Shown here piece by piece: positions 3,113 to 48,690 of a DNA stretch of 64,000 bases. Source of the DNA: Taiwanofungus camphoratus (lineage: Eukaryota > Basidiomycota > Agaricomycetes > Polyporales > Taiwanofungaceae); assembly GCA_003999685.1 (NCBI GenBank), contig CP021230.1:434001-498000 (forward strand), read 5' to 3'. The notes under the pieces were generated by a model. That model worked only from the letters and a program-made list of their open reading frames with translations. It was not told the origin of the DNA and searched no databases. A program made the position numbers and the translations under genes. The stretch's first letter is position 1; each line of letters opens with the position of its first letter.

Positions 3113-3207
3113 GATCCAGGCATAGTATCCTTGCCATTTTGTGAGTTAAGCTTGGTCAATTTCAAGTGTTCCCTCTACTCAGTCAATGCATGGGTTGACT
3201 TGTACGA

Positions 3208-4242
3208 TGATAGGCGCCAGGCACTTCTAGGCCCCGTGGAGCGCCCTCACTCGACCCTAGGACCTTAGTCATGGCTTCGATGCCACTTGACGCATCCGAT
3301 ACAGCCCGAAAAGCCACTGCGGAACTCTCCGATAGCCTCAAATCACGCCACCGCCACTCCGCCAGTTCCGGTCCGATGTTCCGATGTACCGGTCCCTCTA
3401 CGCACAATATGCCGCACGCAGTTGCCACTCAATGTCCTCGCACGTGACTGGTCTCGCCACTCCGATATCGCTCAATCTGCTACAACGCGCCACTCGATGT
3501 ACTCGATAACGCTACGACCCCAGGTCTTGTTTTAGTATATTTCATGTATGTTCCTTTGTTTCAGCCTTTCTAGTGATGACAAGTAGCCACCCCCTCTACA
3601 GGCCACTCCGTAGTTTGTAGTACGCAAGTAGTTAGGATGCCACTCATACTATACCACTCCCGATGCGCCTTACATTATAGTACAGTAGTATAAACGCGAT
3701 GTATAGTGTCTCGGAATGACAGAGAAGTTTTCCCCCATCCTGCAGAGCTCAAGAAGAGCACCTTCAATTCAGTCACCTACTGTGTTCTACTGCGTCCTTC
3801 CATCTTCGATTACGTTCGAAGAGTTGCGTCTACTATCCGCCTTCTACAGTATTTTGAAGGGTTGCATCTTGTCCGTCTTCGACATCCGTTGAAGAGTTGC
3901 GTTCAGTCTTACGTCTGCCTTCGAGCCACATCAAAGGGTTGCGCTAGCATCTCTCTCTAACCCAAGTCCGCCTTCTACAGTATTTCGAAGGGCTGCGTAT
4001 CAGCTAAGTTCTCACGTTTAAGCCTCTCCTTAGTATAGTACAGCATAGTAGTGCATCGAAGCTATGTCGAGCAGTCATGACACACACTGAAGGTCATCGA
4101 AGACCTTTGTAGACGTCTCTCGACCCATTTGAGATCGGGAACCCTTTGCTGCTGACTCTCCCCTCCACACTAACTAGTTCTATAGCCTTCCAGCTTCTCT
4201 AGGTCGTACCCCGTTGGGGTTGGAGTGTTATAGTGCACATCA
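3208..4242 (+). repeat. solo LTR, family A (copy A0), inside the gypsy fossil
   Basis: A 1035-bp segment starting TGATAGG and ending CACATCA. It matches the two LTRs at 35685-36666 and 46609-47590 along its length. It is flanked by a perfect 4-bp duplication ACGA (3204-3207 and 4243-4246). No internal region is present, so it is a solo LTR formed by LTR-LTR recombination. Its orientation is opposite to the host fossil. It keeps many CpGs, so it is of intermediate age. Confidence 0.9.
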
Positions 4243-4325
4243 ACGAGTCAGGGATTGCCAAGCACAACATCGAGCGTTCCAATGTTTGAGACGTAAAAGT
4301 TGGTTGGAATGTCATTCCCTTCAAA

Positions 4326-5803
4326 TCATATACTTCCTTCAACTCTGTGGGTAATCGGTCCCCTCTTGTTTATAGAGCCATCAATGGTGGTTGAGGTTAC
4401 TGTCCTGGAGAGCGGTCGAGTGAGGAGTCCCCACTTTTTTACGAAGTTGGGGTGAATTAGGTTGGTGTCAGCCCCACTATCCAACAAGAGGCATGTGGTG
4501 ATGGCTTTCTCTCCTACTACGATGTAACCTGGTAAATAAAGTGTATTGCGCTTGCACGTTCTGGTAATTACATTTCGTACAGAGAGTTTAGGCGACTTGT
4601 GCATCGTGTCGGGTCACCCTACAGAAAATCCACAAGGTCGTGGTGCTGAGAGAAGTGGGGGAATCTGACCCCTTTCATTTCTTGCCCCTGCTCCTCCTGT
4701 TTGGAGGCTTCATCATCCGTCTCATTTTCATCTTTCACGTTGGCCCTTTGGTTTGGGGGTCCTGTTCTCTGGTCTGAGGTTTGTTCGGGGCAGTCTTTGG
4801 CCAGGTGCCTCTTATTGTGGCATTTGTAGCAGGAGCCTGTCCTTCGGTCTTGCAAGTGCTGATGGTCTGGCTTTCCACTGTCAAATGCCCTTGCTGTGAC
4901 TTGTGAGGGGGTCTTTGAAGCTCTCTGAGCGGCATCAATGGCCTTGTTGTTCTGATAGGCCCGGTCCCGTTGGGCAGCAGCTTTCTTCCATTCTTCTAGG
5001 GTTGTAGGGGCTACATCTTGTTCTATGATTTAGACTCACATGGCGCTGGGTAGTTTTTCCCTGTACCAGGCCATAAGGGCATTCTCCTTGGTGATCTCTG
5101 CCCTGCAGGCCAACCTGTTGAACTCCTCGTTGAAGTCAGCGATGGGTTTGTCGTAGGTGTAGACCAAGTTCCATAGTCCGATGGCTGCAGAGATCTCCTC
5201 CTCTATTACCCTGAACCTTTTGATGAACTTGAGAGCAACGCTCCTGAAAGTGCCATACCCCTGGCTTGCTCCTCTGATGAGGGGATGGGGCTCGAGTGCC
5301 CTTTCAGTAAGGGTATCGACCCATGCACCGGCATGATCTTCTAGATGGCCAAGGAAGTTGCTGACCTTTTCTCGTTCAGAGGCAAAGGCCCATCATTCCA
5401 TGTCAAATCTTTGGGCAAACTGAATGAGGAAGTGCCAGGCATCTTCTTGTTTTCCAGAGAATTTAGTTATCTCTGGCTCTTTTTGGTTGAGTACCCATGC
5501 AGTTCCTTGTGGGAGGGGTGTTCTTCCAGGAGGCTGCCTCCCTCCGGGGGGTCCTCCTCCAGGGGGTCCTCCTCTCCCAGGTGGTCTCCCCTGACCAGGT
5601 GGTCCTCCTTCACTGGGTGGTCCTCCCCCGCTGAGAGGTCCTCCTCCTCCAGGTGGTCCTCCACCACCAGGTGATCCTTCTGGGGGTCCTCCGCTTCCAT
5701 CATAAGGTGGCCCTGATTCCCCTATTCCTGATTGAAAAGAGCCCATGCCATGGGGCATTTCTGGGGTGAAAGGGGATGCTTTTTCCATTCCTTCAGTTTT
5801 CAT
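4326..5803 (-). pseudogene. gypsy gag-protease remnant
   Basis: The minus strand carries a Pro/Gly/Ser-rich N-terminal segment (about 5480-5800), a capsid-like middle, a CCHC nucleocapsid knuckle (about 4790-4840) and an aspartic protease motif reading LLDSGADTNLIH (about 4460-4500). It belongs to the same fossil as the pol remnant. The two are separated by the solo LTR inserted at 3208-4242. It is decayed. Confidence 0.8.
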
Positions 5804-6036
5804 TTGTCATTCTGTCTGTTCGATGTCAAGGTCAGTCAGCTCTGAGCTGGAGCCTTCATCAGAAGGTGGCTCAGTTTCGTCAAAGGTTGTAAAGTGGGCC
5901 TGGATGAGGGCGCAATTGATTAGGGTACAAGGTTCGAGATCGCTTCCTCTGTAGAGTGCAGAGTTGTAGTGGTGAGGGCATGGTTGCGTTGAGCAGACCC
6001 TCCAGTTAGAACTCTTTGCGTAATATCAGTGTACGT

Positions 6037-7575
6037 TGATAAGTCTGATACTCCTCTGCACCCCGAAAGCACCCATTTTTGGTTTTATATGCACTTCTAG
6101 ACTACTCTATAGATCATCAGGACAAAGACCCACCATCCGTGCATCATAACGCCACCCGAGAAATCCAGTCAATGCGCCAAAACATCATTATTTGGACTTC
6201 AGATATCGAAAGTTCTACAGCGCACCTCAGAAGCCTCTATCCCACAGAGCAGTCCCTCATACTTTGTAACGCACTCGTTCATCTCATCCTTGCATCCCTT
6301 GTATGTCCCCAAGTCCCTCTTATTGGCCCAGAAAAACCGAGCAAAGGTCCTTTGGTCTTCAGTTTTCAGTCCTCGATCTCCGGTCCTTCGGTTATTGGTC
6401 TTCGGTCCTCGGTTCTGGTTCTCAGTCTCTCAGTCCGGAGTCCCAGCCTCTTGTTCATGACATCCATATGATCCCTTGGTATTGCCTAGACTCTCTACGC
6501 ATCGGCTTGACAGTTCAGCACTCTTAGGTCTCTGTTCCCCCCAAGACCTGGTTAGATAGCCCATCTTCCATATGATGATCTCTAGATAAGAATCCCCCAC
6601 CTTGTGCCATTCCTCCGTAACCTTTTTACCACATTCAGTGTCCCTGTTTCATGTCCTACTTTAGTTTAGTTCCCCATATGGTACGCTGATCGGATCCTAG
6701 ATTTTATGATTTTCGGTTTGTTTTCGGTTTCTTTGGTTTTATTTTGCATAAGATACTTTGACACCACGGACCCCTTATGTAGTCTCCTGTACCTATCAGA
6801 TGAGAGAGAAGATACGCGCCCCCATCTTGTCTCGCAGAATCTACAGACTTGTCCCCCAGAGTTCAGATTTGGGTTTCCCCTGCTCTAAGGCTTCCCTACA
6901 GTCTGACAAGGTTCCTCTCCATCATATCTATGCCTATCGCCAGCCAGCAGTCCTATTATATCATATATCGCAGCAGTTCTATGTCTTCTACGTCCTATGT
7001 TCCCAAAGTTGGAGTAACTTCGGTCTGAGTAACCAGTCCCCCTCCTCCTCCCCATCCGGCATGCCTCCACCCTCGTTATACCCCATAGGCACGTGTTGCG
7101 CACAGTCTAGTCTATCAGTCATCGCCTACGCCAGCCCTACGTACCATTCCTACAACATTAGCCCTCAGCAGTATTCTCTATCCTGATTACATCAGTTTTC
7201 GGTTTATCTTTCAGTTCTTGGTTCACCACCAGTGCGCCCTCAGTTCCTTTGACTCCTTTGCACCTGGCCAGCATTCAACCAGCCCGCTGCCATCGGATTA
7301 GAAGACCATGCTCCTACCTTTCTGGGACTGCCCGCACCTCGGCATAAGATCCTGTCACGCAGGATTCATTGGCCCCTTACTCCTCTGCACACACTAGACT
7401 TTTAGGCCCCTGACAGTGGTCTAGGTAGTTTCTCTGTCGTGTCCCTTCACTTATCTTTCCCCCTGGTATCCTTCACAGGTACCCCACTGCTTTAGCTCAC
7501 TCCCTACTCATTGGGACGTGTCGGACCTACTCCCTAGATTCATCCCCTCAGTCCAGGACTCTCTAGGTCGTATCA
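6037..7575 (+). repeat. solo LTR, family C (copy C1)
   Basis: A segment beginning TGATAAG and ending GGTCGTATCA. It is homologous to the split copy at 32812-34093 plus 47952-48191. The flanks are ACGT (left, 6033-6036) and ATGT (right, 7576-7579), a 4-bp duplication differing by one CpG-type transition. Position 7332-7335 holds an undisturbed CCGC where the other C copy has been struck by an LTR B, so C1 is the empty-site allele for that insertion. Confidence 0.8.
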
Positions 7576-8768
7576 ATGTCCTGATTGTTCTCTGCTTGAT
7601 ATCGATGAACCTTTCTCGTGCACATCAGGGTCGACCTCCACCTTGTTTTGGAGGATGGATCCAGCTTGCCAATGATGATAGAAATCTCGAATGCTCAGCA
7701 GCCTTTGATATAGGTTCACAATTATGGGAACGGCTAACTGAAATGAGAAACGCAGATTTGAGAGCACCTTCTGAGCAGTGAGGATGCGGTGATCGAGGAC
7801 TTCGTCGAAATCTTCAGAGAGAGTGGGAGGCAGAGGTCAGCTCCCTTCCCTACTTGTCAGCCTGTCGTGATTTTCTAATATGGCTTGCCAAGCGTCACTT
7901 GCCCTGGAGATGTGGGAGTGGATGTAATGAATCAGCTCCCTCTGTTCAGCTGGGAGGAAACTGATGGAACTATCAGCGTGAAGAATGGCTCTGAGGTTGC
8001 GCTCAGCTCAATCTAAGACCTCTTCTAAAGTCGGGAGAGTAGGGCGAAAAGCTGTGTGATCCAGCTTTTCCTCTTGTTCGTAGTTGATATCAAAAGGTCA
8101 TTGATAATCCGCGGTGGTCAGTACTAGTCCTATGAGTATGCTGACCTCACCTTTTCTGAGACCAATACGGGTCTTCAGGCACTGTCTTCTTGTGGCTTCT
8201 CGAACCTGGATGGGTTTGGGTTTGTGAAGTTGTATTCTAGTGTTACCAGGGGGTTCACCCTGGTAATGCCACAGAAGCTTAGAGTGGTGTGCAGCGAAGG
8301 GTCGAGGAGGAACAGCAGCGACGACAAGCCACGTTTCTCAGTAGTCTTCAACTATAAGCCCTATGTAGTCGTGATAGTCTTTACGGGCTCTTTGTGGGTG
8401 CAAGAAGATGTGTAAAGAAAAGCATATATTGGTACTAATACGTAGTACACTTCGGAATGAATGAACAAAGAGAATACGACTAGGGAAACCTCCAGCGGAG
8501 GGTCCCCCCTTTATACTGCTACCACCAACCCCCAGGTATAGCTAAGCAGTCCCCCCAGAGACAGCGTAAGGTGAAAAAAGTCAGTGGTCCAAAAGTACAT
8601 AACTACCATGGTGTAAGTGGGGATGGTCAGTCTGTCAGTCAATCTGGGTGAGTAATGCATGGAAGGGATGCCGCGCGTCCATGGTGTGACAAACAAAGGA
8701 AAAGAAAAAATGTTTTAGTCCCTAGCCCTACCCATCGGTAACAGCAACCTTAGGGCCATCCTCCAGAC
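7576..8768 (-). mobile_element. probable 5' leader/LTR of the gypsy fossil
   Basis: Sequence between the C1 solo LTR and the B1 solo LTR has no coding signal. It continues the fossil to the left across the C1 insertion, because the C1 target duplication joins the two sides. A TATA-like box lies on the minus strand near 8510. I could not fix the LTR ends or a primer binding site, so the extent is an inference. Confidence 0.4.
8510..8515 (-). promoter_or_regulatory. TATA-like box of the fossil LTR
   Basis: The minus strand reads CAGTATAAAGGGG here, followed downstream by a GC-mixed segment leading towards the fossil gag region. This is where a 5' LTR promoter of the minus-strand gypsy element would lie. 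It rests on sequence resemblance only. Confidence 0.3.
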
Positions 8769-9637
8769 TGATGAGTCCTGAAGTCTTCCGGGCTCTGAAT
8801 TGCAAATTTAGAAGCTTTCTAATTCTCTCACAGGCCAATCTACAATTCCTCTAGAGCCTATGACAATTGGGATACCTTTTTAAAACTCTTCTAACACATC
8901 TTTCACATCCTAAACATCTCTAAATGCTTATGAAGCCCTACAAAGTTACATGAAGTCATGCAAAATGTTCTGAAGCTTCTAAATCTAGCTACAAACTCTC
9001 TAATCTGTGCTATATCCTCTATAAGACACTTTTGACCCTTCTATACTGTTCTATCTGGTCCAGGTTATATCTTCTATATCATCTATTGGCTCTCAACTTA
9101 GAAATCTTAGCTAAGTCTCTTTGATTTCTGCTGTGATGGTATGCACCTTTGATGACCTCTGAAGCAGTCTGAGATTCTAAAGTCTAGACTTAGAATGCCT
9201 CATGCACTCCCTCTCAATTTAGCAAAGTCTCACTGATAGAAACTTCATATGCCTTTAGCTTGTGATAATGGCTGATCACTACACATGCCCACCTCCTGAT
9301 AATCACCCCAACTCTATGCCTGAACTTAGAAACATTTCTACCATAATCAGTTATTCTGTTTCATTTTCTAAATAGTTTCTATTGCTTTGAAGTTTGTGCA
9401 CTTTTAGTACATATTTTGAACTTTTAAATACCATGTAAGATAGTTGGTCTTATCTTATTCTATTTAGCCAGATATACTCTACTATGTATAAGAGAGACTC
9501 CTCGATACACACTTTCCCCTTGAGAATACTAGTTCCTTTTCTAGATCTGATCTTATAGCATACTGCAAGTGTGGACTTAAGAACCATTCTAAGCCTTCAA
9601 GTCTCCAACCCAAGCTTCATCTCAGTCCATCTAACTA

Positions 9638-11252
9638 CAGTGACTCACAAAATCATTGCAATGTTTGTCACTTTCTGACTGTTTGATCTATATCTCAGTC
9701 ACCAGATATGTGATAGCTTCAAATGTTAGACCATTAGAAAGCCCTGCATCATGGCTTTCCAACGTGATATCTATCATAAAAAATGGACAAGTATATGAGA
9801 AGTTATCTATCATTCTTTCAGAAAGTTTATTGCAACGATTTCATTGCTAGCATAATATGAAATAGAAAATACAAATGATTAGTACTTAGTATATTCTCCT
9901 TTTGCCTTTATCACAGCCTCTACCCTTCTAGACATACTTTCTATCAAATTTTGATACACAGGAGCATCAATTGCATTCCATTCCTTCTCCACACACTCCC
10001 AAAGTTCCAAAATCCCACTTGAAGGCTTTTCATATTCTGCAAGCCTTGTTTTCAAGTGTTGCCAAACATGCTCAATAGGATTGAGGTTGAGAGACTGATC
10101 TGGCCATACCATGACATTAAAATCATGGTCTTGAAACCACCTTTGGGCCTTTTTGCTAGTGTGCTTGAGGTTATTGTCTTGCTGAAAGATGACATCTTGA
10201 GGGGTTAGACTATAGTAATCAAGTGATCCTTGAAGTTCATCCTCTAAGATGCTGACATAAAGGTCTGCATCTATCCTCTCATAAATCTTGCATGTCAATC
10301 TAACTCCTTCCTAAGTCATACAGCCCCATACCATGACATTCCCTCCACCAAACTTGACTGTTCCCTCCACCAGTCTGGCACTAAGACCCTCTCCTGGCTT
10401 TTTTCATGCCCATTTCCTTCCATCTGACCCCAGGCAATTGATTTTGGTCTCATCAGACCATATAACCTTCTTTCAATCATCCACAGTCCAGTGCTGATAA
10501 CTCACAGCAAAGTCCAACCTCTCCTTCTGATGGTGCTTTGATAATAGTGATCATTTCTTCTTCATCACAGCCTTCATACCTGTTTTTCTCAGAGAACGAT
10601 GAATGGTCTGTGGGGATATAGGTGTGTTCTTAATATCCTGAAGTGTTTTAGACACTTGAACAGCACTTTCAGCCTTTCCAGTGCTAATTAAGTGAATAGC
10701 ATGATGAATATCAGTGGAGGAAAGCTTGGCTGGGCAGCCACCAGAGGACTTGAGAAGGGTAGAACAAAGTCTAGGGTGTATCCTGGTGATAGTACTATAA
10801 TGTACACCAGTAGAGCTGGATATTTGGCAAGCAGATTGACCTAAATCAAGCAGAGAAAGAATTTGATTGGTAATGTCTGTAGAAAGGGATTTCATGATGA
10901 TGAAAGTGTGGTTCAATTTGATATTATTGCTTGTTTGTGCTATGTTGAACTTCTCTTAAGGTCACATGACTTGCATAAAAAGATTCAAGCCCAGCAAGCA
11001 TGATGTCCTGCCACTGTCTACCAATATTTGATTTGCAAAATGTCAGCAACAAAACCATTGCAATGAACTTTCTGAAAGAATAATAGATAACTTCTCATAT
11101 ACTTGTTCATTTTTTATGATAAATACCACATTGGAAAGCCATGATGCAGGGCTTTTTAAAGGTTCAACATTTCAAGTTATCACATATTTGTCTGCTAAGA
11201 TATACAAACAGTCAGAAAGTGACAAACATTGCAACAGTTTTGCGAGTCACTG
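9638..11252 (-). mobile_element. Tc1/mariner-superfamily DNA transposon
   Basis: A 1615-bp element with long terminal inverted repeats (about 9638-9843 against 11050-11252, roughly 200 bp). The termini read CAGTGACTCACAAAA at the left, with the inverted complement CAGTGACTCGCAAAA at the right. It is flanked by TA on both sides (9636-9637 and 11253-11254), the target duplication of this superfamily. It interrupts LTR B1: LTR sequence resumes exactly after the right TA. One decayed transposase gene on the minus strand fills the interior. Confidence 0.9.
9879..10916 (-). pseudogene. Tc1-like DDE transposase pseudogene
   Basis: The minus strand encodes an N-terminal helix-turn-helix region (ITNQILSLLDLGQSACQIS, with GVHYSTITRI following) and a DDE catalytic domain. 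The first Asp lies in VIWSDETKIN, the second in FQQDNNLKHT and the Glu in NPIEHVWQHLK. One frame can be followed the whole way. Between about 10300 and 10560 it has four stop codons, each where the family would have tryptophan (for example before KKVIWSDET, and between RKWA and KKPGEG). TGG to TGA/TAG is G-to-A change, the pattern expected from cytosine deamination on the opposite strand. The catalytic triad residues survive, but the gene cannot make a full transposase. Confidence 0.85.
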
Positions 11253-12046
11253 TACGTTCTACACCCTATGAAGTCACTGTGACTTCGTGCACTATGCATA
11301 TTCATCCAGTCCCCCTATCTGGTGTGCCTCTGCCTTAGTTATACCCCATAGACCCACGTTGTGTCAATACTATGTTCTCCTACATCTTATTCCTTGCCCT
11401 ACAATCTTCAATCTTATTCCTACCTTTCCATTACACTTCTAAATTCTTCAAAACACATACTATGCTTAGCAGCTCTATCATCATCTCTCACAACCTCAGA
11501 ACCTTCTATGAGAGCCTATACATCTCTATAGCACCTTTCAGACTTTCTATATACTCCCTATCTTGTTCCTATTTCTCTTATCACCTTTTATGATCATCTG
11601 AAATCCTTCACAGTTTGACTGACTCTAGCTGACTTGTAAGGCTTTAGGAAGTCCATCTGCCCAATTTGTTACCCTTTGCACCCCATCTCACTTCCTTATG
11701 CATTATTCCTTATCTCCTATCTCCTCCCTATGCTTCTATCCCTCTTTTGATTCCTTCTACAAACTTCACCCTACATTGCAGCACTTCAAAGCACTTCGGA
11801 CTATAATGCAAGGCTTCAAAGGTGTTCAAAGGATTTTGTATCTCTTAGGGACCCTTAGCACACAGAAGTAAGTTCCTGAAGCACAAGACCCTTGACCCCT
11901 TATCATCTCACATAACAATAACAAGACATACAGGCTACTCAGTATCATACAGGCAGTGCTCCCCCTCTCCTACAGCTATTCACACACACCACTCACTGAC
12001 CAGCCATTTCAGAGCACTTCCTAGATACCAGGGTTAGATCATATCA

Positions 12047-12400
12047 CCAGATGGTACATCTGTGGATGTAACTTGTGTGGATACAGATATGGATGCAGAT
12101 ACTTTCTCACAAATAGATGGATCCATCCACAGTATCCACTCATCTTTTGGAAGATCACAAGGACACCAACTTGCAGGTGAGCTTATTGCTGATGCAACAA
12201 TTACCATCATGTGATACCTCACTTGTTAATACATGATTTTGACATTTAGTGTACTTAACCCATGGTGTTTACTATCAAATATACACCTCCGCAACCATAC
12301 GGATTGCCATCCATGGATGGCGGAGTTTGAACGTATCCGCAGATATACATCCGGATGGCTATCCGGATCATCCATGCTAGTCCCTAGTCGAACGTGACCT
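12047..12400. repeat. GGATNNNGATAC-rich imperfect inverted repeat region
   Basis: Short words such as GGATACAGATATGGATGC at the left (about 12078-12100) and GTATCCGCAGATATACATCC at the right (about 12328-12347) form a loose inverted arrangement, with further ATCCGGAT palindromes at 12344-12375. It looks like the ends of a small, decayed DNA transposon or MITE. There is no coding sequence and I could not define clean ends. Confidence 0.35.
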
Positions 12401-12639
12401 TTACAACACTGGTGGCGACTGGTAAGCTTGGCAAGGCATGTGGCAGGAAGCTGTGGTGCCTCTGAGGCATTCATTCTTGTAGACTTCAGACTCCATACCG
12501 CCGCAAATCGGCTCATCGGCAACCAAGATCGCTTGCTCCTTGCTTCGAATTCTCAGAACGTGATGGAGATGCCAACTGGGTAGTTGTCACAACAGCATTG
12601 CCACTTGTCCGAGTCTTGGAGCTTCTGACTAGATACGGA

Positions 12640-13010
12640 TGTCGCATGTCCTAGGGCGCATCACTGACCGGTACACTTTGGCGCCTCCCGTTTTCATTAA
12701 ATATGTCGACTTTGTGGCAAAGTCATATACGATTCCACAGAACTCTTCCTGCAACTCGTCATGGGTGGTAATCTCAATGGTATGCCATCCGAATGTGTTC
12801 AGACCTACTCATTGTCCATTTGTTCTCAACATCGACACTGTAGGGAGGCCCTTCTTGATAGAGACGCGTGCATTGACTGAAGAACCGGCTCCACTTTTGC
12901 GAGCAACCACTTCGCGCTTGTTGCTCATCAATCCGGCGGTCCACTGGGGTAGAGAGATTCCCGACCCTGAAAACGGCGCTGCCAATAACTCGGGCAAAGA
13001 GTCTGGCCCT
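12640..13010 (-). pseudogene. decayed fragment of an unrecognised gene
   Basis: The minus strand reads a protein-like stretch with Ser/Ala/Val-rich sequence, then KKGLPTVSMLRTNGQ, an in-frame TGA (near 12808), and on in the same frame VGLNTFGWHTIEITTHDELQ. The stop stands where a tryptophan codon (TGG) would read smoothly, suggesting a nonsense change in a once longer gene. I do not recognise the family. It sits between a TE graveyard and an intact host gene, so it may be a gene remnant caught at the border. Confidence 0.3.
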
Positions 13011-13099
13011 CGAAGAAAATGTACGCTATCAAAGACGCCTCGTAGCCTGCGCTGTGTTTCTCAAATGGTTCATGTCTCATAGGGACCCAAAGAGATCAG

Positions 13100-13809: not shown

Positions 13810-14059
13810 ACGGACCTGTACGTTGTCCTTCACGACTGCGCACCAGTCTCTTGAGACTTTAACAAGACTTTCTAATGGAATGACGCATAATGATTGCATG
13901 TAATCTCCGCTTGGCTTCTTGAGGAGTGAGCGTATACAGCATATCTTACATAATCATCAATGATGAATGTTTAGACAGTGTAAGAAACCCAACTATGCTC
14001 TTTATAGGTTGCTCTTGAACTGTGCAAGAGCGAGAGGTTGATCTGACGATACGATTAAC

Positions 14060-18038: not shown

Positions 18039-18040
18039 TA

Positions 18041-36666: not shown

Positions 36667-36670
36667 TTTC

Positions 36671-36689
36671 TGGAGCCCACCGCGAGGGG
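36671..36689 (+). other. putative primer binding site of element A1
   Basis: TGGAGCCCACCGCGAGGGG begins four bases after the 5' LTR. TGG matches the complement of a tRNA 3' CCA end, and the next bases could pair with an acceptor and T-stem. I cannot name the tRNA without the genome's tRNA set. Confidence 0.5.
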
Positions 36690-36720
36690 ATTTCAGGCAA
36701 GGAATCCGCCGCTTTCAGAT

Positions 36721-39394
36721 TTGCCGAAGACGTCTCCAGTATTCACCCGCTCACAAGCGCGTGAGGCTGCCAGTTGTAGCGCAAGCGAAAACCTCGACAA
36801 CAGTTCTACCACCCTTTCCACAACTCCTGACACCTTCGACCACGAGGAAGAAGACCTCGTAGATCATGAGCTAGAGTTTCCTTCAACCTCCGACGAACGT
36901 ACTTCGTCTCCCGAGCTTCTAGGGCTATCTACGCCAGAAGTCAACCTCTCGTCCCCCGATCCCTATGAACAGTCCGGTTCATCGCCTGAGCCAGAGGACC
37001 CAGTAGAATCAACATTGCATACCACTATCCCCACTACTACAACTCTACCCTCGTCCCAGCAGACTGTTACTCCATACATTCTTCCCAGTTCTTCGAATCA
37101 CCCCACACCAGCCACCGTCAATCCCTCTAAACCTACAATGAATCAGAACGCGGCACCTACGCCTTTTATGCCCCCTCGAGGCCATTCGACAGCCCCCATC
37201 TTCGACCCAACAGAAGTCCGATCGCTTCGACGTTACTTTCAAGACATCGAAGTCTTATTCACCCAGTGCAGAATAGTCGATGACGCAGAAAAGAAGTCAT
37301 GGGCCATTCGTTACCCCTCGATCGACGTCGCAGACCTATGGGAAACCCTTGAATCCTTTTCCGATCAGACCAAGACATACGCACAGTGGAAAGCCGACAT
37401 TCTAGCACTCTACCCAGGTACCGATGACACCAGGAAATGGTCCCTTGCAGACATGGACCAGTTGATTGGGGAGCGCGCACGCATTGGAATCCACAACGCC
37501 GCAGACCTTGGAAGCTACTACCGTGACTTCGTATCTATTACGAAGCACCTAATCACGCAACGACGACTCTCCAACATCAAACAAAGTCGAGCGTTCCTAC
37601 GAGGCTTCCAGCCTTCTCTACTCGCGCGACTCGAGGCCCGACTTCACCTGAAACATCCTGACCACTATCCCGATGACCCCTATCCACTTTCCGATATTCA
37701 CGCAGCGGCCACGTTCATTCTTCACGGTACTTCGAGTACGCCGACAGTCGCAGCACCGCAGACAACATCTTCAACAACTACCCCACCTGGCATGATTAAG
37801 ACCGAAGACATCTCAACGATCATCGAGAGCCTATCGAAGACCATCGCCACCCTTATCCAGCCCAGTAGTAACAAATCGAACGTAGCCGCTAGGCTTCCGT
37901 CAACCCAAGGTAGTACAGAACAAACCTGCCACTTTTGCGGCGACCAGAACCATAGTATTCGAAGCTGCCCGCACGTAGAAGCAGACATAGCCGCCGGGAA
38001 ATGCAAGCGTAACACCGAAGGAAAGGTCATACTCCCAAATGGTCTATTCATCCCGCGTAGTATCCCTGGCATTACGATCCGCGACCGCCTCTACGAGTGG
38101 ATTCGCCGCAACGTGCCAGCAGCACCTGGCCTGCTCTATGGCATCAACAAACAAGCCAGCGTCCAGACCTTCACGCTCAACATGGAAGGAAGAATCGAAG
38201 CCCTCGAAAGAGAGCTCCTACAGCTTCGAAAACGTAGGGAGGTCTTCGATGGCGTCGAGATTTTACAGCGCAAGAAATCTACTACGACAGCGCCGCAGAC
38301 CACAGAAGTTTCTGATACGACCCCCATCTCACGCAGTACCAATAATCCAGCGCCTGACACAGTCAAGTCAGCAGCTCCTACCGAAGTCCCAGTCCCAGCG
38401 ACCCCAGCTAAACCTTTGACGAGTACCTCTGCACCTTCGACGATCCCCACAGCTATAGTTCCCCCGCTGTCCGTACCCTCGACACAGCCCGCTACCGTAT
38501 CTACTCCATCAGCCCCCCCAGTCCATCCCTTTGCAAATGCTCGAGACGCGACCTACGCTCCGCCGAACCTTCGAAACTTCGCTACGCCACCTAAGCCTTC
38601 GAACGACAAGGGCAAGGACCCAGCTTACAAGACCATAGTTCCCATCCATCAGCCCAAGCTAGCCGACGACATCTTTGTGCGCTCAATGAGAGCTCCTCTC
38701 GTCACGCTGACGCCAGAAGAACTCCTTTCGATCTCGCCCGATGTACACAATAGGTATCGAGAAGCAGTTACACCCAAGCGAGTATCAGCGGAACCCGTCA
38801 ATGCGGCACACATCGTAGAGATTACCGACGAAGACGAAGCAAAAGAGGTACACCAGCTATCCTGCTCTGGTGCAGCGCTACAGCCAGGAGCTACTATCGT
38901 TCCCGATCCCTACGAAACTTATCTCAAGCACGTCCCACATGGCGAACATCCCGCCGATCTCACGGTTGCCCGCGACTCGAACGCTATCCGTTCGATCTAC
39001 GCGCTCGTCGACAATAAAGAACAGATCGAATGCATCGTAGATCCAGGCTCACAAATTGTAGCAATGTCGGAGGAAGTCTGTTTAGGCCTGAAGCTTCTCT
39101 TCGACCCTACGATACAGTTAAACATGCAGTCCGCCAACGGTGAAGTAGACCGATCTCTAGGGCTCGTACGCAACGTACCCTTCCAAATTGGTGAGGTAGT
39201 GTTATATCTTCAGGCTCACGTCATTCGAAACGCAGTATACGACATTCTTCTCAGACGACCCTTCGACGTCCTTACGCAAAGCATCGTAAAGAACTTTGCG
39301 AACGAAGAACAAACCATCACGATAGTATGTCCCAACTCCGGTGAAACCCTCACAATTCCTACGTATCCGCGCGGAAAACCACGCTTTCGACCGC
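36721..39394 (+). pseudogene. gag-protease region of element A1
   Basis: Long gag with an acidic Ser/Thr/Pro-rich N-terminus, a conserved capsid-like core (region of PIFDPTEVRSLRRYFQDIEV), a CCHC knuckle (CHFCGDQNHSIRSC, about 37926-37970) and a protease-like segment with VDPGSQIVAMSEEV (about 39040-39080). The segment from AYDILL-type RNAVYDILL onward is the C-terminal side of the protease, just before LTR B3 cuts in. This matches the DUF4100-type gypsy family. It is interrupted by the LTR insertion and is not expected to act alone. Confidence 0.85.
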
Positions 39395-41159
39395 TGATGA
39401 GTCCCGTAGCCTCCTGGCCCCCGAATCGCGATTTTAGGAGCTTTCTAATCCCCCAACCGACCACTCTAAAACTCTCCTACAGCCTACGACAGGAGGGATA
39501 GGTTCCTATAAAGTTCCTAATGCCCCCTCTCCTTCCTAAACCCTCCTAACACCCTACGAAGTCTTGCGAAGTCACACGAGGTGCTACGAGATTTCGAATG
39601 CTAGACGCGAAGTCCCTAACTCCTGCTAAGTCCACTATCGGACACTGCCGGCCCTCCCATACTGTTCCATTGGATCTAGGTCCTATCTACAACGTCACTC
39701 ATCCCGGGCTTAGCTAAGAAGTCTTAGCTAAGTCTCTCCTAGCTCTTGTGATTGCAGCTACCTCCGATAGGCTCCGAAACGGTCCGAAGTTCCGGAAATT
39801 GGACTTAGGAAGCCTTGTGCACCCCCATGGGTCTCGATCCTATGCCATAAGGTCATCCTAGGGCGTACCCATATGACCCTCCACCCAGTTAGGACACCTC
39901 CTGCCCCGATTAGGCCAAGTCCCGCTGCTAAGAACTTCGTGCGCTCTTAGCCCGCTAAGATAGGTGATCACGGCGCATGGCTGCTCTCGGATAGTCATCC
40001 CGCCCTCGTGAATGAAGTTGGTCACCTTTCTACCGTTCGTAGTTCCCCTGTTTCAGTTCCTAATTAGTTCCTATCCTCCTCGTGTTCACTTCGGAGTCCA
40101 GGCGTTTTAGTACACATTTCGGACTCGTAAGGATCACTTCGCGCAAGATTAGTTCACCTCACGCTCCCCTATTTAGTCAGAGGTAGTTTACTATGTACGA
40201 GAGAGACCCCTCAGTGCACGCTTCTCTCTTTGGAATACCAGTTCCCCTGTAGCTCCGATCTCAGGAAAGCGCCGCGAGTACAACCTTAGGAACGGTCCTA
40301 AGGTCCCTAAGTCTCCACCCCAGCTTCGTTTCAGTACCTTTGAACTACGTCTACGCTCGCGATATATCTACGAACTACGTCTACGCTTCCCGAACTACGC
40401 ACTACGATCTACGAAGTCGCCGTGACTTCGTGCCCTTCAGCACCTCTTATAGCACCTATCCGGTGGGCCTCCGCCTTAGTTATACCCTTAGGCTCACGTT
40501 GCGTCATCCCTACGTCCTACGAATAACCCTACGACTCCCCCATAGCCTTCATTACAGGCTATAGTACATCTCTCTACGCCCTCGAACTCTCCGACCCACA
40601 CCTCGACGTCATCAGACACTTCAGAGCTTCCAGCAACCTCGTTCCCTCATTCCTATTCCAAGTATTAGCTCTCCGAACCATCCGACCTCTCCTACAAGTC
40701 TCCTACGCCAGCCAAACCTCGCCCACCTCGCTCTAACAAACCTCTAAGCCTTACACCCTTTAGCTAACTCTAGCTAAAAGGACTTCGCAGCAGTCTCGTA
40801 CCCTCTGCCGCTTAGTAGAAATTATAGTCCATTGGCTTATTGCTCCCTAACTCTATACAGCCTACGAAGTCAGCTCGCGCGATTTAGCTAAAACTTCGAA
40901 GGACTTCGCAGAATCTCGAAGGACTTCGTGTACTTCGGAGGGCCTCGCAAGGCCTTAGGGATAGTATAACACTTAGGAACAAGATCCTGTTGTGCAGGAC
41001 CCTTGACCCCTTACTCCCCTACTTACAAAAACAAGACATACAGGTTTCCCGGTATCATACAGGTTGTAGCTCCTACCCTCACACCCTCACAGTTATCACA
41101 CTACCCCCAGCCACGTTGCGGAGCACTCCCTAGGTACCAGGGTCCCCTAGGTCGTATCA
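39395..41159 (+). repeat. solo LTR, family B (copy B3), inside element A1
   Basis: A 1765-bp LTR, TGATGAGTCC...GGTCGTATCA, flanked by a perfect CCGC duplication (39391-39394 and 41160-41163). It is the best reference copy of LTR B here and the innermost, so probably the youngest, insertion of the nest. Promoter words (TATATCTACGAA near 40370) are present but no gene is. Confidence 0.92.
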
Positions 41160-44100
41160 CCGCAACATCATAGAAGCTGTCCGCATGCGGGTTTTCACAC
41201 TTCAAGGATTTGATACCCCATCGTCAAGGAGAAGCAGCCCTAGTCATCGACTACGATGGGGCAAAGCCAAGTATTTCTTTCGTCGCTCCGATAAATTCTT
41301 CGATCTCTGGCGCAGTCCAGTCCCTTTATCTCTCTGCTTGTTCTTCATTCTCCTCACATTTGCAGTCTCTCTATACCGCAGACACAAAAGCATCCAGTTC
41401 GGCCACATCGAACGCTTCGACGTGGGCTTCGACACTTCTATTTTCAGCCCCTTTTGCTTCACTTCCTAATCCGTCCTTTTCGAACTCTTCGAATTGTGCT
41501 TCGACCTCTCAGCTTCTTAATTCCATTCATCCGACATCTTCTACGTCGACTCACGAAACCTACGCAGCTACTAAGAAGAAGTACAAGCCAGTCGCACTCA
41601 AGACTTGTCCCGTTCTAGGAGCGGTCCCCAAGCAGTTTTGAATAATTCGAGATATCAAGGGGGACCCCCTATCCATTATGCCAGTACTCTCAGCTGACCC
41701 CCCACCCTTCGAACCTACTGGCCGTTATACGCATGAACGCTTCGAAATTACGGAGAAACTTCACGACGGCACCTTCCTGCTCCCCGACGAGCGTCGAGTT
41801 CTCCATCACTTCATGTGCTTGCACAATGAAGCCTTCGCATGGACCGACGAAGAAAGGGGATGCTTCAAACCAGAATACTTCCCTCCTGTAGATTTCCCCA
41901 TCATTCCACATACGCCCTGGGTGCAGAAGAATATCCCAATTCCACCTGGGATCTACAATCAAGTCTGCGCAATAATCAAGCGAAAGATCGACGCAGGTGT
42001 CTACGAGCCTTCGAACTCGTCGTATCGATCGCATTGGTTCTGCGTAGTAAAGAAGGACGGGAAATCTCTTCGACTCGTACACTCCCTCGAGCCCCTTAAC
42101 GCAGTTACTATACAGCACTCCGGCGTACCACCAACGCCAGAATATCTCGCAGAACAGTTTGGAGGAAGGCCGTGCGGTGGCATGCTCGACCTCTACGTAG
42201 GCTACGACGAACGACTCATCGCGGAGTCTTCAAGAGACCTTACGACGTTCCAAACTCCCTACGGTGCCATGCGACTCGTCACCCTTCCGATGGGTTGGAC
42301 GAACTCAGTCCCTATATTCCACGAAGATGTCACGTACATTCTACAACCCGAAATCCCGCACTCTACAGTCCCCTACATCGACGACGTTCCAGTCAAAGGC
42401 CCCGCATCTGACTACAACGATGAGCAGCTGCCTTCGAACCATGGGATTCGAAGATTCGTATGGGAACACTTCGAAAACTTGAATCGAATCGTTACTCGAA
42501 TGCGCTACGCAGGAGGAACCTTCTCCGGCGTAAAGAGCGTTCTAATCTCGCGCGAAATCATGGTCATAGGGCACCGGTGTACTCCTGAAGGACGGTTGCC
42601 CGACAACTCTCGAGTCTCAGCAATACGCAACTGGGGCCCCTGCGCTACGCTCTCCGATGTCCGAGCGTTTCTAGGAACTATCGGAGTTGTTCGAATCTTC
42701 ATACGCAACTTCGCCCATCGTGCCGAGGCCCTCGTACGCCTTACGAGGAAGGATGTAGAGTTCGAATTCGGTCCTGAGCAAATCGTAGCACAAGAAGACC
42801 TCAAGGACGCTCTACTCTCCTCCCCTGCACTACGAGCTATCAACTACAATTCCCCGTCTCCCGTAATCCTCGCAGTCGACACTTCATTCATTGCAGTTGG
42901 GTACCACCTTTGTCAGTGCGACGAAGCCAACACTCGAATCCGCTACTACAACCGCTTTGGCTCTATCACGCTGAACGATCGCGAGCGAAGGTTCTCTCAA
43001 CCTAAACTCGAGATCTACAGTCTATTCCGTGCCCTTCGATCCCTTCGACTTTACCTTATCGGCGTTCGAAACCTCATCGTAGAAGTCGATGCTCGCTACA
43101 TCAAAGGCATGCTCAAAAACCCAGATATCGCCCCCAGCGCAAGCATCAACCGCTGGATAGTAGTCATCCTCACATTCCACTTCACGATAGTACATGTTCC
43201 CGGTACAATGCATGGCCCTGATGGTCTCTCTCGACGTACACCACAGCCAGGCAACACGGTCGTAGAAGAAATCGACGAAGACTTCGACGACTGGATTGAT
43301 CACATGCACTCCTTTGTACATCAGATACTACCTCCCCCTCATACCCCTACGATGTCCGTGCTAACCAACGCAGAAGCCGAGGACGGCTCCAATGTCAAAA
43401 AGGAGGAAGATAGCTACAAAATCGTCCCGCGTTCAGAGCAAGCGCAGCTCGCAGATGCAAGACTCGATGAGGTCCTCGAGTTTCATCGAACACTTTCGAA
43501 GCCAGAAGGCATTTCGGACAGCGAATACGAAGGGTTTCTCAAGTACTGCGTGCTGTTCTTCTTGGATAACGACACTCTATGGCGAAAAGACAACCACGTC
43601 GCGCACAAGTTGGTCGTCAAGCCTGGCGATCGCCTTCGAATCCTTCGAGAATGTCACGACCGCACCGCTCATCGGGGCATCTACGCAACAAAAGTCTTCG
43701 TCAACGAACGATTTTGGTGGCCGTTCCACTACGCAGATATAGCATGGTTCGTCCGAACGTGCCATCTATGCCAGTCTCGACAAGTTCAGCAAATCCTTAT
43801 TCCCCCTACCGTCGCAATGCCCGCCCCTATCTTCGCAAAGATATATATCGATACGATGCATATGCCCGCATCAGGTGGATACAAATACCTCGTACAAGGA
43901 AGATGCTCCCTCACGACGTACCCGGAGTTTCGAATGCTTCGAAAGGAAACAGCGCCAGCGCTCGCTGACTGGATCTTCGAAGACATCCTCTGTCGATGGG
44001 GCGCACTCAGCGAGATCGTTACAGACAATGGTGCAGCGTTTATCAAAGCGGCAGACTATCTGTCGAAGAAATACCACATCAACCACATTCGAATCAGCGG

Positions 44101-44827
44101 CTACAACTCTAGAGCGAACGGACTCGTCGAACGACCGCACTTCAGCACGAGACAAGCCTTGTTCAAAACCGCCGACGGAGACGAGAAGAAGTGGTCTCGC
44201 GTGGCGTACTTCGTATTCTGGTCCGAACGCATTACGACTCGACGACGCATGGGTTGCTCACCGTACTTTGCGGTAACGGGCACCCACCCCCTCATCCCTC
44301 TCGACATCGTAGAAGCCACGTACCTTCAGCCCCCTCCCACTTCAATTCTTTCTACGACAGATCTCATCACACGTAGAGCAATCGCGCTCCAGAAGCGCGT
44401 AGAGCAAGTAGCCGAACTCAGCTCAAAGGTCTACGAAGCTCGTCGAACAGCAGCACTTCGCTTTGAAAAGGAGCATGAGCACTCGATCAAGGACTTTAAT
44501 TTCAAACGAGGAGACTTAGTGCTCGTACGAAACACGAAGATCGAGAAGTCCCTGAATAGCAAGATGCGCCCCCGCTACTTAGGCCCTCTCATCGTTGTCT
44601 CACGCAACAAGGGCGGCGCGTACATCATCTGCGAACTGGACGGCACAGTCCTCGATCGGCCCATCGCAGCATTTCGAGTCATCCCCTACTTCGCTCGACA
44701 ATCCATCCCTATCCCAGACAACCTAGAAGACATCTCAACTGAGCGTCTTCGAGAACTTGAACGATCCAGTTCGCTCGGCGACGATGACGATGACATCGTC
44801 GAAGACGTCGAAGAAAGCGAGCAGTAG
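41160..44827 (+). pseudogene. pol region of element A1 (RT, RNase H, integrase)
   Basis: After the solo LTR the protease-pol linker continues, then pol proper. The reverse transcriptase has YIDDVPVKGP (about 42373-42405), RNase H follows with LAVDTSFIAVGYHL, and the integrase has its zinc finger (HRGIYATK to CHLCQSRQ, about 43670-43790) and catalytic core (IYIDTMHMP; IVTDNGAAFI; NGLVERPH). The C-terminus has a GPY/F-like stretch (RPRYLGPLIVVSRNKGGAYI), and the tail is acidic. I see no chromodomain. YIDD in place of the usual Y-x-DD variants is normal for this lineage. Confidence 0.88.
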
Positions 44828-45221
44828 AAGCCCCTGTCTCTTTACTTATACTACTACGATGCGTACTTTTAACGGTCTCATTTCTCTTACTATATGCTTG
44901 ATTTCACCTCTCTTTCTATTTGATCTAGCGTCATTTTTACCTGTACCATACTCGATTCAACTCGACTAAGTCGCGATATCGCTTCGACGTTCTACGAACG
45001 TTTCGATTTGAACGTTGCGCGGAGGCTCACATTCTACGAGTCCTCCTAGGCAGTGATGACAAACTGAGCCTACCAACGCTACCATTTTTCTTACCAAGTC
45101 CTTCGATATGTTCTTCTTCTTCGAACACTTCTATTTCCTTCTAACACGCATTTCACAATTGGAACAAAGAATGTTTAAATTTTCTATAGTACAAAGACCA
45201 CGACCCGCCACAAGACAACGA

Positions 45222-46589
45222 CTACTCCTCATTGCCCGACTCTGCACCCACGTCGAAGCCGCCGCCCGCAATCACCTCCTGTTCTATGCGAATCAGCTCC
45301 AGATCGAGGTCATGGAGCATGGCGCGGCGAAATGCAATGTTCGCGCGCTCCGCCCGAATCATGCGGATGGCGGTGCGCGACTGCTCATCGAGGTCGAGCG
45401 AGTCCAGGTCGTCCTGCTCGAGGCCCAGGCGACTACCGCCATCCAGGGGAACCTTGATAGCGGGGCGAGGCGGCTGGGCCACTCGACGGTGCTTCGATCC
45501 GCTGACCTCTCCCGTCGAAGGTCCAGGCGAAGGAGGGGGGGCTGCAGAGAAAGACAAGTCAGGGACAAACGCAAGAAAGAAGAAGAAGAACTCACCCTGC
45601 TTCTTCGCACCACCGCGAGTCTTCTTCGTACGACCCAAGACCGAGACCCCACCGAAATAGCAGCCCTGCGCTGCCTGGATGCACCGCTCACACGCAGTGG
45701 CGCCCTCCGCCCAGACACACTCGACGGTCTGAATACGGATTCGACATCGATCGCACTACGAAGAAGCATTAGCTCAGGAAAGTAGCTGAAGAAACAAATC
45801 ACATACCTTTTCCCCCGCCTGCTGCTTCATCCGCGCGACTCGTGCCCAGTCAGTCTCGGGCGCCGTCGAGCCGTCGCGGTCGCTCTTCGACGCCTTCTAC
45901 AAGCCGGTCAGTAATCGAATAGGAGGGCAAGACTCCATAATGTACCGCCGCAGCGTCATCATCCCGAGCCCGTTTCTTTCCCTTCGAAGTGGCAGCGGCC
46001 CCTTCGACGTGCTCCCCAGTACCCTCCACCATCCTAGACACGTCGGCATCTGCCAACTGCGCGGCCTCCTCCGCCTCTCGTTGAAGGGCAGCCTCCTCCT
46101 CCTCACGCACCCGAGCCACACGCGCGGCTTCTTCTTGGTGGCGTTCTTCTTCGACACGACGAGCCTCGGCCGCAGCAGCACGGAGGCGTGCCTCTTCTTC
46201 GCGACGCCTCTCCTCTTCAATGCGACGAGCAGTGACGGCGTCGATCGCAGTGGCCAGGGCCGGCCATTCATCGTGGACCCACACGGCCCACGACTCGGCG
46301 GCAATCTCGGCGAGCTCACCAACCAGCGTCGACACACGCTCATCCACCTCTACGTCCTCAACGGGCCCCCGCGCCTTGCGATACGTACTCTACGACAGAG
46401 GTAGTTAGCAAATAGGAAAGGACGAGCTGATAAGAGACGTACCAGCAAATCCGCAATGTCCTGCGCCCAAGCTTCGACCTCCTCGGGGACGGTGTCGGCA
46501 CAGGGTGTATTGAGTACCGCGATCAGACGGTCCCGAGCGCGCTGAACGCGCGAAGCGACGACAGTGGGGGTAGCAGAACGAGAAGGCAT
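45222..46589 (-). CDS. antisense accessory gene of element A1: coiled-coil and zinc-cluster protein
   Basis: Between pol and the 3' LTR, on the opposite strand, lies a gene with about five exons and short GT-AG introns. Its start is 19 bp inside the 3' LTR border (ATG at 46589) and its stop at 45222. In order: a short N-terminal domain with several Trp (WAQDIADLL; SWAVWVHDEWPALA), a long Glu/Arg/Ala coiled coil (about 46000-46250), a basic KGKKRARDDD signal resembling a nuclear localisation signal, then six cysteines spaced C-x2-C-x8-C-x8-C-x2-C-x6-C (about 45670-45755). This spacing is near that of fungal Zn2Cys6 clusters. A basic RTKKTRGG stretch and an acidic helix-forming C-terminus follow. 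The frame stays open through all exons, so it looks whole. Similar unplaced proteins are common in agaricomycetes from memory. The role is unknown; a nucleic-acid-binding regulator is my inference. Confidence 0.7.
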
Positions 46590-46593
46590 TGTA

Positions 46594-46608
46594 AGGAAAA
46601 GGAGGAGA
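46594..46608 (+). other. polypurine tract of element A1
   Basis: AGGAAAAGGAGGAGA-type purine run directly before the TG of the 3' LTR, the usual primer for plus-strand DNA synthesis. Confidence 0.75.
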
Positions 46609-47590
46609 TGATAGGCGCCAGGCCCTTCTAGGCCCCGCGGAGCGCCCTCACTCGACCCTAGGACCTTAGTCATGGCTTCGACGCCACTCAACATGTCCGA
46701 TACAGCCCGAAAAGCCACCGCGGGACTCTCCGATAGCCTCAAATCACGCCACCGCCACTCCGCCAGTTCCGGTCCGATGTTCCGGTGTACCGATCCCTCT
46801 ACGCACAATACGCCACGCGCAGTTGCCACTCAATGTCCTCGCACATGACCGGTCTCGCCACTCCGATATCGCTCGATTTGCTACGATGCGCCACTCGATG
46901 TACTCGATAACGCTACGGCCCCAGGTCTTGTCTTAGTATATTTCATGCCACTCCATAATTCGTAGTACGCAAGAAGTTAGGATGCCACTCGTACTATGCC
47001 ACTCCCGATGCGCCTTACATTATAGTACAGTAGTATAAATGCGATGTATGGTGTCTCGGAACAACAGAGAAGTTTTCCCCTATCCTGCAGAGCTCAAGAA
47101 GAGCACCTTCGATTTAGTCACCTACTGCGTTCTACTGCGTCCTTCCGTCTTCGATTACGTTCGAAGAGTTGCGTCTACTATCTGCCTTCTACAGTATCTT
47201 GAAGGCTTGCGTCTCGTCCGTCTTCGACATCAGTCGAAGAAGTTGCGTTCAGTCTTACGCCCGCCTTCGAGCCACATCGAAGGGTTGCGCTAGCATCTCC
47301 CTCTCTAACCCAAGTCCGCCTTCTACAGAAATTCGAAGGGCTGTATATCAGCTAAGTTCTCACGTTTAAGCCTCTCCCTAGTATAGTACAGCATAGTAGC
47401 GCATCGAAGCTACGTCGAGCAGTCGCGACACACGTAGAGGGTCGTCGAAGACCTTCGTAGACGTCTCTCGACCCATTTGAGATCGGGAACCCTTTGCTGC
47501 TGACTCTCCCCTCCACACTAACTAGTTCTATAGCATTCCAGCTTCTCTAGGTCGTACCCAGTAGGGGTTGGAGTATTATAGTCCACAACA
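46609..47590 (+). repeat. 3' LTR of element A1
   Basis: 982 bp, nearly identical to the 5' LTR and of equal length. It ends CCACAACA and is followed by the TCGT duplication. It may also supply the promoter side for the antisense gene, whose start codon is only 19 bp away. Confidence 0.92.
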
Positions 47591-47594
47591 TCGT

Positions 47595-47951
47595 ATCACC
47601 GCTTAGTAGAAACTATAGTCCATTGGCTTATTGCTCCCTAGCTCCATACAGTCTACGAAGTCAGCTCGCGCGATTTAGCTAAAACTTCGAAGGACTTCGC
47701 AGAATCTCGAAGAACTTCACGTACTTCGGAGGGCCTCGCAAGGCCTTAGGGATTGTATAGCACTTAGGAACAAGATCCTGTTGTGCAGGACCCTTGACCC
47801 CTTACTCCCCCACTTACAAAAACAAGACATACAGGTTTCCCGGTATCATACAGGTTGTAGCTCCTACCCTCACATCCTCACAGTTATCACACTACCCCAC
47901 AGCCACGTTGCGGAGCACTCCCTAGATACCAGGGTCCCCTAGGTCGTATCA
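47595..47951 (+). repeat. LTR, family B, remainder of two joined copies
   Basis: ATCA (47595-47598) completes the inner LTR B. It is followed by CCGC and then by the 3' third of another LTR B (47603-47951, TTAGTAGAAACTATAG to GGTCGTATCA). In B3 the matching point reads CTCTGCCGCTTAGTAG, so the inner LTR B had inserted at that CCGC of an older LTR B. The older copy's 5' part was then lost, probably by recombination between the two. The right flank is CCGC (47952-47955), matching CCGC at 34090-34093. Confidence 0.7.
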
Positions 47952-48191
47952 CCGCACCTCGGCATAAGATCCTGTCATGCAGGATTCATTGGCCCCTTAC
48001 TCCTCTGCACACACTAGACTTTTAAGACCCTGACCATGGTCTAGGTAGTCTCTCTGTCATGTCCACCCACTTACCTTTTCCTCTGATATCCCTCACAGGT
48101 ACCACCCCGCTTTAGTCCTCCCTTCTCATTAGAACATGTCAGATCTACTCTCTAGGTTCATCCCTTTGTTCAGGACTCCTAGGTCGTATCA
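47952..48191 (+). repeat. LTR, family C (copy C2), right part
   Basis: Resumes with CACCTCGGCATAAGATCC, matching 7336 onward in C1, and ends AGGTCGTATCA. Together with 32812-34093 it makes one solo LTR split by the B and A insertions. Confidence 0.8.
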
Positions 48192-48690
48192 CCACCTTCT
48201 ACAGTACTTAAAGGGTTGCACTCTAGTCTGTCTTCAACATCTGCTGAAGAGTTGTGTTCAGTTATCATCTCAGCACATATCCACCTTTGACTCTGTCAAA
48301 GGGTTGCATTCAGTCCATCTTTGACTTTTGTCAAAAAGTTGCATTCCAGTATCCCAGTCTTGTGTTCACCTTTGAGTCACATCAAAGGGCTGCATATTAT
48401 ATCTCACCTCTAACCCAGTCCACCTTTTACAGTAATTGAAGGGTCATGTATCAGCTAAGTCTTCACCTCTAGTCTCTCCTATCTCAGTACATTATAGTAG
48501 TGCATTGAAGCTACATTGAGCAGTTGTGACACATGTCATAGGTTGTAGAAGACCTTTGAAGACATCTCTCAAGTAATATGAGACTGAGAACCCTTTGCTA
48601 CTGACTCTCCCCTTGCATACTACAGTTCTATAGCCTTTCAGCTTCTCTAGATTGTATCCAGTAAGGGTTGGAGTGTTATAGTTCACATCA
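48192..48690 (+). repeat. old LTR, family A (copy A4), right part
   Basis: Resumes with CCACCTTCTACAGTACTT, matching the middle of LTR A, and ends GTTCACATCA. It is heavily CpG-depleted, as is the left part. The outer flanks (CTGC left, ACAT right) do not match, so A4 may be a product of recombination between elements. Confidence 0.75.

Follow-up and report, generated by a model that had tools for sequence, protein, structure and literature searches.

The question raised by this locus is why retrotransposons of different families have entered target sites that share the same dinucleotide at the same place. The locus lies in a window of 64,000 nucleotides of Taiwanofungus camphoratus (contig CP021230.1, positions 434,001 to 498,000; the window is this whole stretch of DNA), in which copies of three related families of long terminal repeat (LTR) retrotransposons, here named A, B and C, have inserted partly into one another and have duplicated 4 bp of target DNA with CG at the centre. 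Family A is represented by a Ty3/gypsy element with coding regions, termed A1, while B and C are known here from single LTR-like copies. The integrases of A, B and C probably share a 4-bp stagger with a strong preference for a central CpG, which would be recognised within the integrase-DNA complex. The copies and reading frames are listed below; coordinates are positions in the window and refer to the plus strand unless stated otherwise.

3208-4242 (3204-4246 with the duplication), plus strand: A0, solo LTR of family A, TGAT...ATCA; duplication ACGA at 3204-3207 and 4243-4246
6037-7575 (6033-7579 with the flanks), plus strand: C1, C-family LTR-like copy; flanks ACGT (6033-6036) and ATGT (7576-7579); uninserted relative for the split B site
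8769-12046, plus strand: B1, old B-like copy, interrupted by an inverted-repeat element; flanks CCAGAC and CCAGAT, not NCGN
32162-32801 and 48196-48690, plus strand: A4, outermost old A-type LTR; flanks CTGC and ACAT
32798-48195, plus strand: C2, C-family copy in A4; flanks CTGC (32798-32801) and CCAC (48192-48195)
34090-47955, plus strand: X, split B copy in C2; duplication CCGC at 34090-34093 and 47952-47955
47599-47602, plus strand: inner B junction, right duplication CCGC of B copy Y within X
35681-47594, plus strand: A1, Ty3/gypsy element with two 982-bp LTRs (35685-36666 and 46609-47590); duplication TCGT at 35681-35684 and 47591-47594
36658-39501, plus strand: first reading frame of A1, aspartic protease, extending beyond the B3 insertion point at 39395
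39391-41163, plus strand: B3, 1,765-bp B-family copy (39395-41159) in A1 between protease and reverse transcriptase (RT); duplication CCGC at 39391-39394 and 41160-41163
41642-44827, plus strand: pol reading frame of A1 with RT, RNase H and integrase (H2C2 and catalytic domain), assigned by domain and PDB matches

From the outermost element inwards, the nest is ordered A4, C2, B copy X and B copy Y, and B3 is innermost, in A1. The point at which A1 entered B lies four bases short of the 3′ end of B, and the junction at 47599 suggests that X and Y have merged on their left sides. A0, C1 and B1 are located outside the nest. All copies start with TGAT, and all end with ATCA except the LTRs of A1, which end with AACA.

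Direct reading of the junctions recovered every 4-bp duplication that the initial annotation had listed, with the restriction that for Y the CCGC was seen at the right end only. As claimed there, the duplications follow the pattern NCGN: this holds for all five unambiguous targets, and for seven of seven when the sites of C1 and C2 are taken to be decayed CpG. For four of the seven targets, those of X, Y, A1 and C2, a related copy that lacks the insertion served for comparison. At the position equivalent to the split B site in C2, C1 reads CCGC (7332-7335); B3 reads CCGC (40808-40811) at the inner B site and TCGT (41152-41155) at the A1 site in B; and A0 reads CCGC (3837-3840) at the C2 site in A. 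Due to the fact that these uninserted copies carry the site, the duplications of X, Y, A1 and C2 are target DNA. The CCGC in A0 also backs the original CpG that had been proposed for C2, and the LTRs of A1 hold its decayed form.

The CpG is located at the exact centre of the target (offset 0) in six of seven sites as read, and in all seven with the inferred CCGC of C2, against 3 of 112 positions when the other 16 offsets up to 8 bases away are counted. Exact centring without surrounding CpG enrichment therefore suggests that the CpG is recognised within the complex of integrase and target, and not that the complex is delivered to a region. The reach of a tether is tens of bases or more, and it cannot select the dinucleotide between two cuts; as sole cause, it was rejected on the basis of the centring. 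Of the two agents suggested initially, a CpG-preferring integrase fits the central CpG well, whereas a tethering partner is not supported: the centring is exact, and Pfam detected no chromodomain in the pol frame of A1 at E values up to 1.

The strength of the pattern was assessed against several backgrounds. A central CG had been expected at about one site in sixteen; the measured value is lower, as CG makes up 5.1% of the steps in the window (about 1/20). In the insertion hosts it accounts for 2.1-8.3% of steps, four of the seven hosts being measured on the uninserted relative, and multiplying the host CpG frequencies gives 1.8e-7 over five sites and 3e-10 over all seven. If the largest of these frequencies (0.083) is applied throughout, the probability is 4e-6 for five of five sites and 3.8e-4 for five of nine, with A4, B1, C1 and C2 counted as misses. 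Allowing for the post-hoc choice of the dinucleotide, any one dinucleotide would be common to five of five sites with a probability of 1.8e-5 if the frequencies of the window are used and 2.7e-5 if those of the pooled elements are, rising to 5.4e-5 and 8.0e-5, respectively, when three positions within the duplication are allowed for.

The assignment of A1 rests on its structure and on domain matches. Its LTRs (982 bp, 98.9% identical, TGAT...AACA) flank an internal region with the order protease, RT, RNase H and integrase, as in Ty3/gypsy elements. The protease match within 36658-39501 (E 6.4e-5) scores 24.0 bits against a Pfam cut-off of 24.3, the RT (residues 107-532) has Ty3 as best PDB match (E 3.5e-28), and the integrase part, which is of retroviral type, matches the integrase of prototype foamy virus (PFV) best (E 3.3e-10) and that of Ty3 more weakly (3.1e-6). 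AAGGAAAAGGAGGAGA abuts the 3′ LTR in the position of a polypurine tract, and TGGAGCCCACCGCGAGG, four bases past the 5′ LTR, is a candidate primer-binding site. A chromodomain, which marks chromoviruses at the C-terminus of the integrase, was found by Pfam neither in the pol open reading frame nor in the frames 45060-45785 and 45790-46404 at E values up to 1. The three families have no blastn match to one another. Copies of all three nevertheless carry CTAGGTCGTA at their 3′ end or close to it (4198-4211, 7562-7575, 36622-36635, 41146-41159, 47546-47559, 47938-47951 and 48178-48191), and CCTAGGTCGTATCA, with up to three mismatches, has 17 matches against 4.4 expected, including these seven.

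In the proposed mechanism, in which we infer the integrase as the cause and methylation as dispensable, an integrase with a 4-bp stagger would put a sharp bend into the target at its central step, so that a flexible pyrimidine-purine (YR) step would be favoured, and the integrases of A, B and C would narrow YR to CG. Family preferences for the outer bases may be added, CCGC for B and ACGA/TCGT for A. Family B has CCGC in three of three sites in the same orientation and family A has ACGA and TCGT, reverse complements of each other, in two of two sites; with n=3 and n=2 sites, respectively, these patterns compare with shares of 12% (CCGC and GCGG) and 15% (ACGA and TCGT) among the NCGN of the window. 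As a separate observation, short inverted arms are present at two targets, TGACT...AGTCA at A0 (3192-3207/4247-4258) and ATCAG...CTGAT at C1 (6021-6036/7580-7591), 1-2 bases off-centre.

Several points weigh against a CpG-preferring integrase shared by the three families. The sample comprises five to seven insertions from a single window, three of them from family B, and the integrases of B and C are not in the window. A single-sequence model of the A1 integrase part had a mean predicted local distance difference test (pLDDT) score of 37 and was not used, so that no residue can be named. At the position equivalent to the C2 site both LTRs of A1 read CTGC, and CCGC is found in A0 only. The initial annotation had set A4 and B1 apart as copies with unmatched flanks. 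This is borne out for A4, whose flanks CTGC and ACAT differ and leave the target unreadable, but not for B1, whose flanks CCAGAC (8763-8768) and CCAGAT (12047-12052) match in five of six bases with AG at the centre. B1 may thus carry a 6-bp duplication in a family with otherwise 4-bp duplications. Relatives for a wider comparison were not found: four scans of viral_contigs (with A1 pol, two degenerate pol patterns and the A LTR start) returned none, and in genome_contigs A1 pol had six pattern matches, none of them confirmed, the LTR starts of B and C not having been scanned.

Another explanation is that methylated CpG is recognised, either by the integrase or through a reader of methyl-CpG or heterochromatin that recruits it, and that elements are thereby sent into silenced elements. 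This is considered unlikely, although part of the evidence accords with it. Between the two LTRs of A1 there are 11 differences over 982 sites, each a transition and 10 of them at CpG (binomial 6e-5 even with the test confined to G and C bases); the oldest copies A4, B1 and C2 are depleted of CpG (observed/expected ratio, o/e, 0.00-0.31), so the elements were probably methylated; and the identifiable hosts, to which that of C1 does not belong, are all other elements. Within the nest the CpG o/e is 1.16-1.25 for A1, 0.72-0.93 for the B copies, 0.31 for C2 and 0.15 and 0.00 for A4; outside it, A0 has 0.99, C1 0.59 and the B1 region 0.08. The ratio thus declines broadly, not strictly, with age, the innermost B3 being below A1, and the families may differ in their starting CpG content. 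In other pairs the share of CpG-type differences is smaller: 32/72 and 34/69 between A0 and the A1 LTRs, 60/268 and 66/252 for A4, 48/204 between C1 and C2, 19/65 between B2 and B3 and 2/12 for the X tail. Cytosine methylation at CpG is the natural explanation of this decay, which makes methylation of the elements likely, and repeats methylated at CpG have been described in a mushroom (PMC9674265). The decay pattern indicates methylation after insertion and not methylation as a cue. The exact centring without flanking CpG enrichment speaks against a tethered reader. This point does not hit direct reading by the integrase of CpG, perhaps 5-methyl-CpG, at the centre of the cut, a variant that also appears unlikely; if it were true, the silencing mark would be a landing signal, and elements would pile into silenced elements while targets were lost as CpG decays. 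Moreover, the pol of A1 has no chromodomain by Pfam, integration sites of lentiviruses are disfavoured in CpG-methylated regions, with other retroviruses being similar (review PMC3185549), and a sequence cannot reveal methylation at the time of insertion.

On the suggestion that a CpG preference also explains the insertion of elements into elements, the hosts are divided. Those of A0, C1 and X have CpG at 2.1-3.2% of steps, below the gene regions (5.4-5.7%), whereas those of A1, the inner B copy, C2 and B3 have 5.7-8.3% (the first three measured on relatives); this places three of seven hosts below the gene regions in CpG and four level with them or above. Young elements could attract insertions slightly more, and the present-day figures do not show this generally.

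A general preference of 4-bp-stagger integrases for YR centres (CG, CA, TG or TA), with the uniform CG due to chance and to CpG-rich hosts, is given a similarly low probability. All seven readable centres, decayed ones included, are YR, as are the unmatched A4 flanks CTGC and ACAT, and four retroviruses that duplicate 4 bp have been shown to prefer YR (PMC4422553). However, CG makes up a share of only 0.211 of the YR steps in the window (21%) and 0.347 in A1 (35%), and five of five CG centres given YR have p = 4e-4 with the window share and p = 0.005 with the A1 share. This is the weakest of the tests, and by it the preference exceeds YR. The retroviral use of YR is on average 63% above background and not absolute (PMC4422553).

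It is very unlikely that B, and perhaps C, are not LTRs at all and reach CCGC by other means, for instance as a Ginger-like DNA transposon or through site-specific recombination, in which case the pattern would join unrelated things. This reading gains from the absence in the window of paired B or C copies flanking a coding region, an arrangement that solo LTRs could not show, from the insertion of B at CCGC in three of three sites in one orientation, and from the 4-bp CCGG/CCGT duplications of Ginger1 (PMC2836005). Inverted end matches, counted in register, are also higher in B3 and C1 (13/24 bases) than in A1 (9), though only slightly higher than in A0 (11). On the other hand, B and C start with TGATRRGTC and end with ATCA, near to A, and share CTAGGTCGTA near the 3′ end with it. 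No terminal inverted repeat of at least 40 bases is present, end matches being 18/40 in B3, 16/40 in C1, 18 in A0 and 15 in A1, and the uninserted relatives show true target duplications. Of the features of Ginger1, 4-bp NCGN duplications are thus found for B (CCGC) and C (ACGT/ATGT and decayed CCGC), and inverted repeats of 40-270 bp are not. In B3 an inverted match of about 49 bases (39545-39593/40912-40959) lies 150-200 bases inside the ends and beats 200 of 200 shuffles. Crypton-like site-specific recombination was considered for B and set aside on account of the duplicated target DNA in the comparison with uninserted relatives.

Chance, noticed post hoc in few sites, is extremely unlikely: the sample is small, the pattern was picked after looking and B1 is a misfit, but with three positions allowed for, five of five has a post-hoc probability of about 5e-5 to 8e-5, and the uninserted copies, above all A0 at the C2 site, to which the initial annotation does not refer in this respect, agree.

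Further elements of the window were recorded alongside. A scan for further insertions, based on matching 4-mers around TGAT[AG]...ATCA at distances of 300-2600 bases on the plus strand, and blind to A1 and other split copies, gave 11 pairs including A0 and B3. Among the nine others, one pair (21263-23583, ACGC) is NCGN and was taken as chance; none of the 11 pairs finishes at 12650-12663, where an LTR end resembling those of B or C lies. The host of A0 is an apparent protease frame of a minus-strand gypsy element, in which the joined flanks read DVVLGNP*LVQVNPCID (minus strand), which we take to be a protease-like motif. This second gypsy element (1-3203, minus strand, and beyond A0) is cut by the window edge and has an SH3_Tf2-1-type integrase tail and a CpG o/e of 0.36. 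The inverted-repeat element within B1 (9636-11254) has ends of about 213 bp with 86% identity, starts with TACAGTGACTC and finishes with GAGTCACTGTA; it resembles TA-flanked elements of the Tc1/mariner type. A near-palindrome of 800 bp (17238-18040) is 79% identical to its own reverse complement. The genes of the window include eIF4G and an FMN-dehydrogenase, which together with the kind of retroelements suggest fungal DNA; an inverted pair (14292-15023/22433-23333) consists of two short matches about 75% alike, one of them inside the FMN-dehydrogenase frame.

If the preference of the A, B and C integrases for a central CpG were true genome-wide, it would define a group of LTR retrotransposons in which the central CpG is nearly invariant, a tighter choice than the retroviral YR preference and one useful for learning how an integrase reads the central step. 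As CpG is also the step that is methylated, such a group would allow a direct test of whether the insertion of retrotransposons is promoted, blocked or left unaffected by methylation. Among the literature matches listed (titles and abstract beginnings), no fungal LTR element with a CpG-centred duplication is described.

Known systems resemble the fungal elements in different respects. The integrases of PFV and Moloney murine leukaemia virus (MoMLV) likewise make 4-bp duplications with a flexible YR centre, PFV being the best PDB match of the A1 integrase; at PFV integration sites VYRB is found in the duplication and the central YR is unstacked (PMC4422553). In contrast to the readable CG centres in the window, the retroviral preference is moderate and applies to YR in general (PMC4422553). 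In target choice they are similar to Ginger1, which has a Gypsy-type integrase (H2C2, DDE, GPY/F) and nearly always 4-bp NCGN duplications, with CCGG in 75% and CCGT/ACGG in 24%, together 99% (PMC2836005). Unlike A1, however, Ginger1 is a DNA transposon, reported from four animal species, with inverted repeats of 40-270 bp and TGTNR ends (PMC2836005), whereas A1 has LTRs, an RT and TGATR starts. In plants, the 4-bp duplications of LTR elements (61 nested and 1661 non-nested) have a GC-rich central dinucleotide; this centre is set within AT and is given in the available text without CpG resolution (PMC6911290). The Drosophila LTR element ZAM has a retrovirus-like integrase that binds and prefers the CpG-containing CGCGCg, but its target is longer and cleavage by the integrase requires a second binding site (PMC2527525). 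The Drosophila Gypsy clades 412, gypsy and Idefix also have 4-bp duplications with palindromic, clade-specific motifs, which differ from those of A, B and C in being AT-rich (ATAT, TATA) (PMC3276498). By analogy with these systems, the CpG-centred fungal group can be regarded as a sharp form of the known clade-specific target motifs that are set by the integrase.

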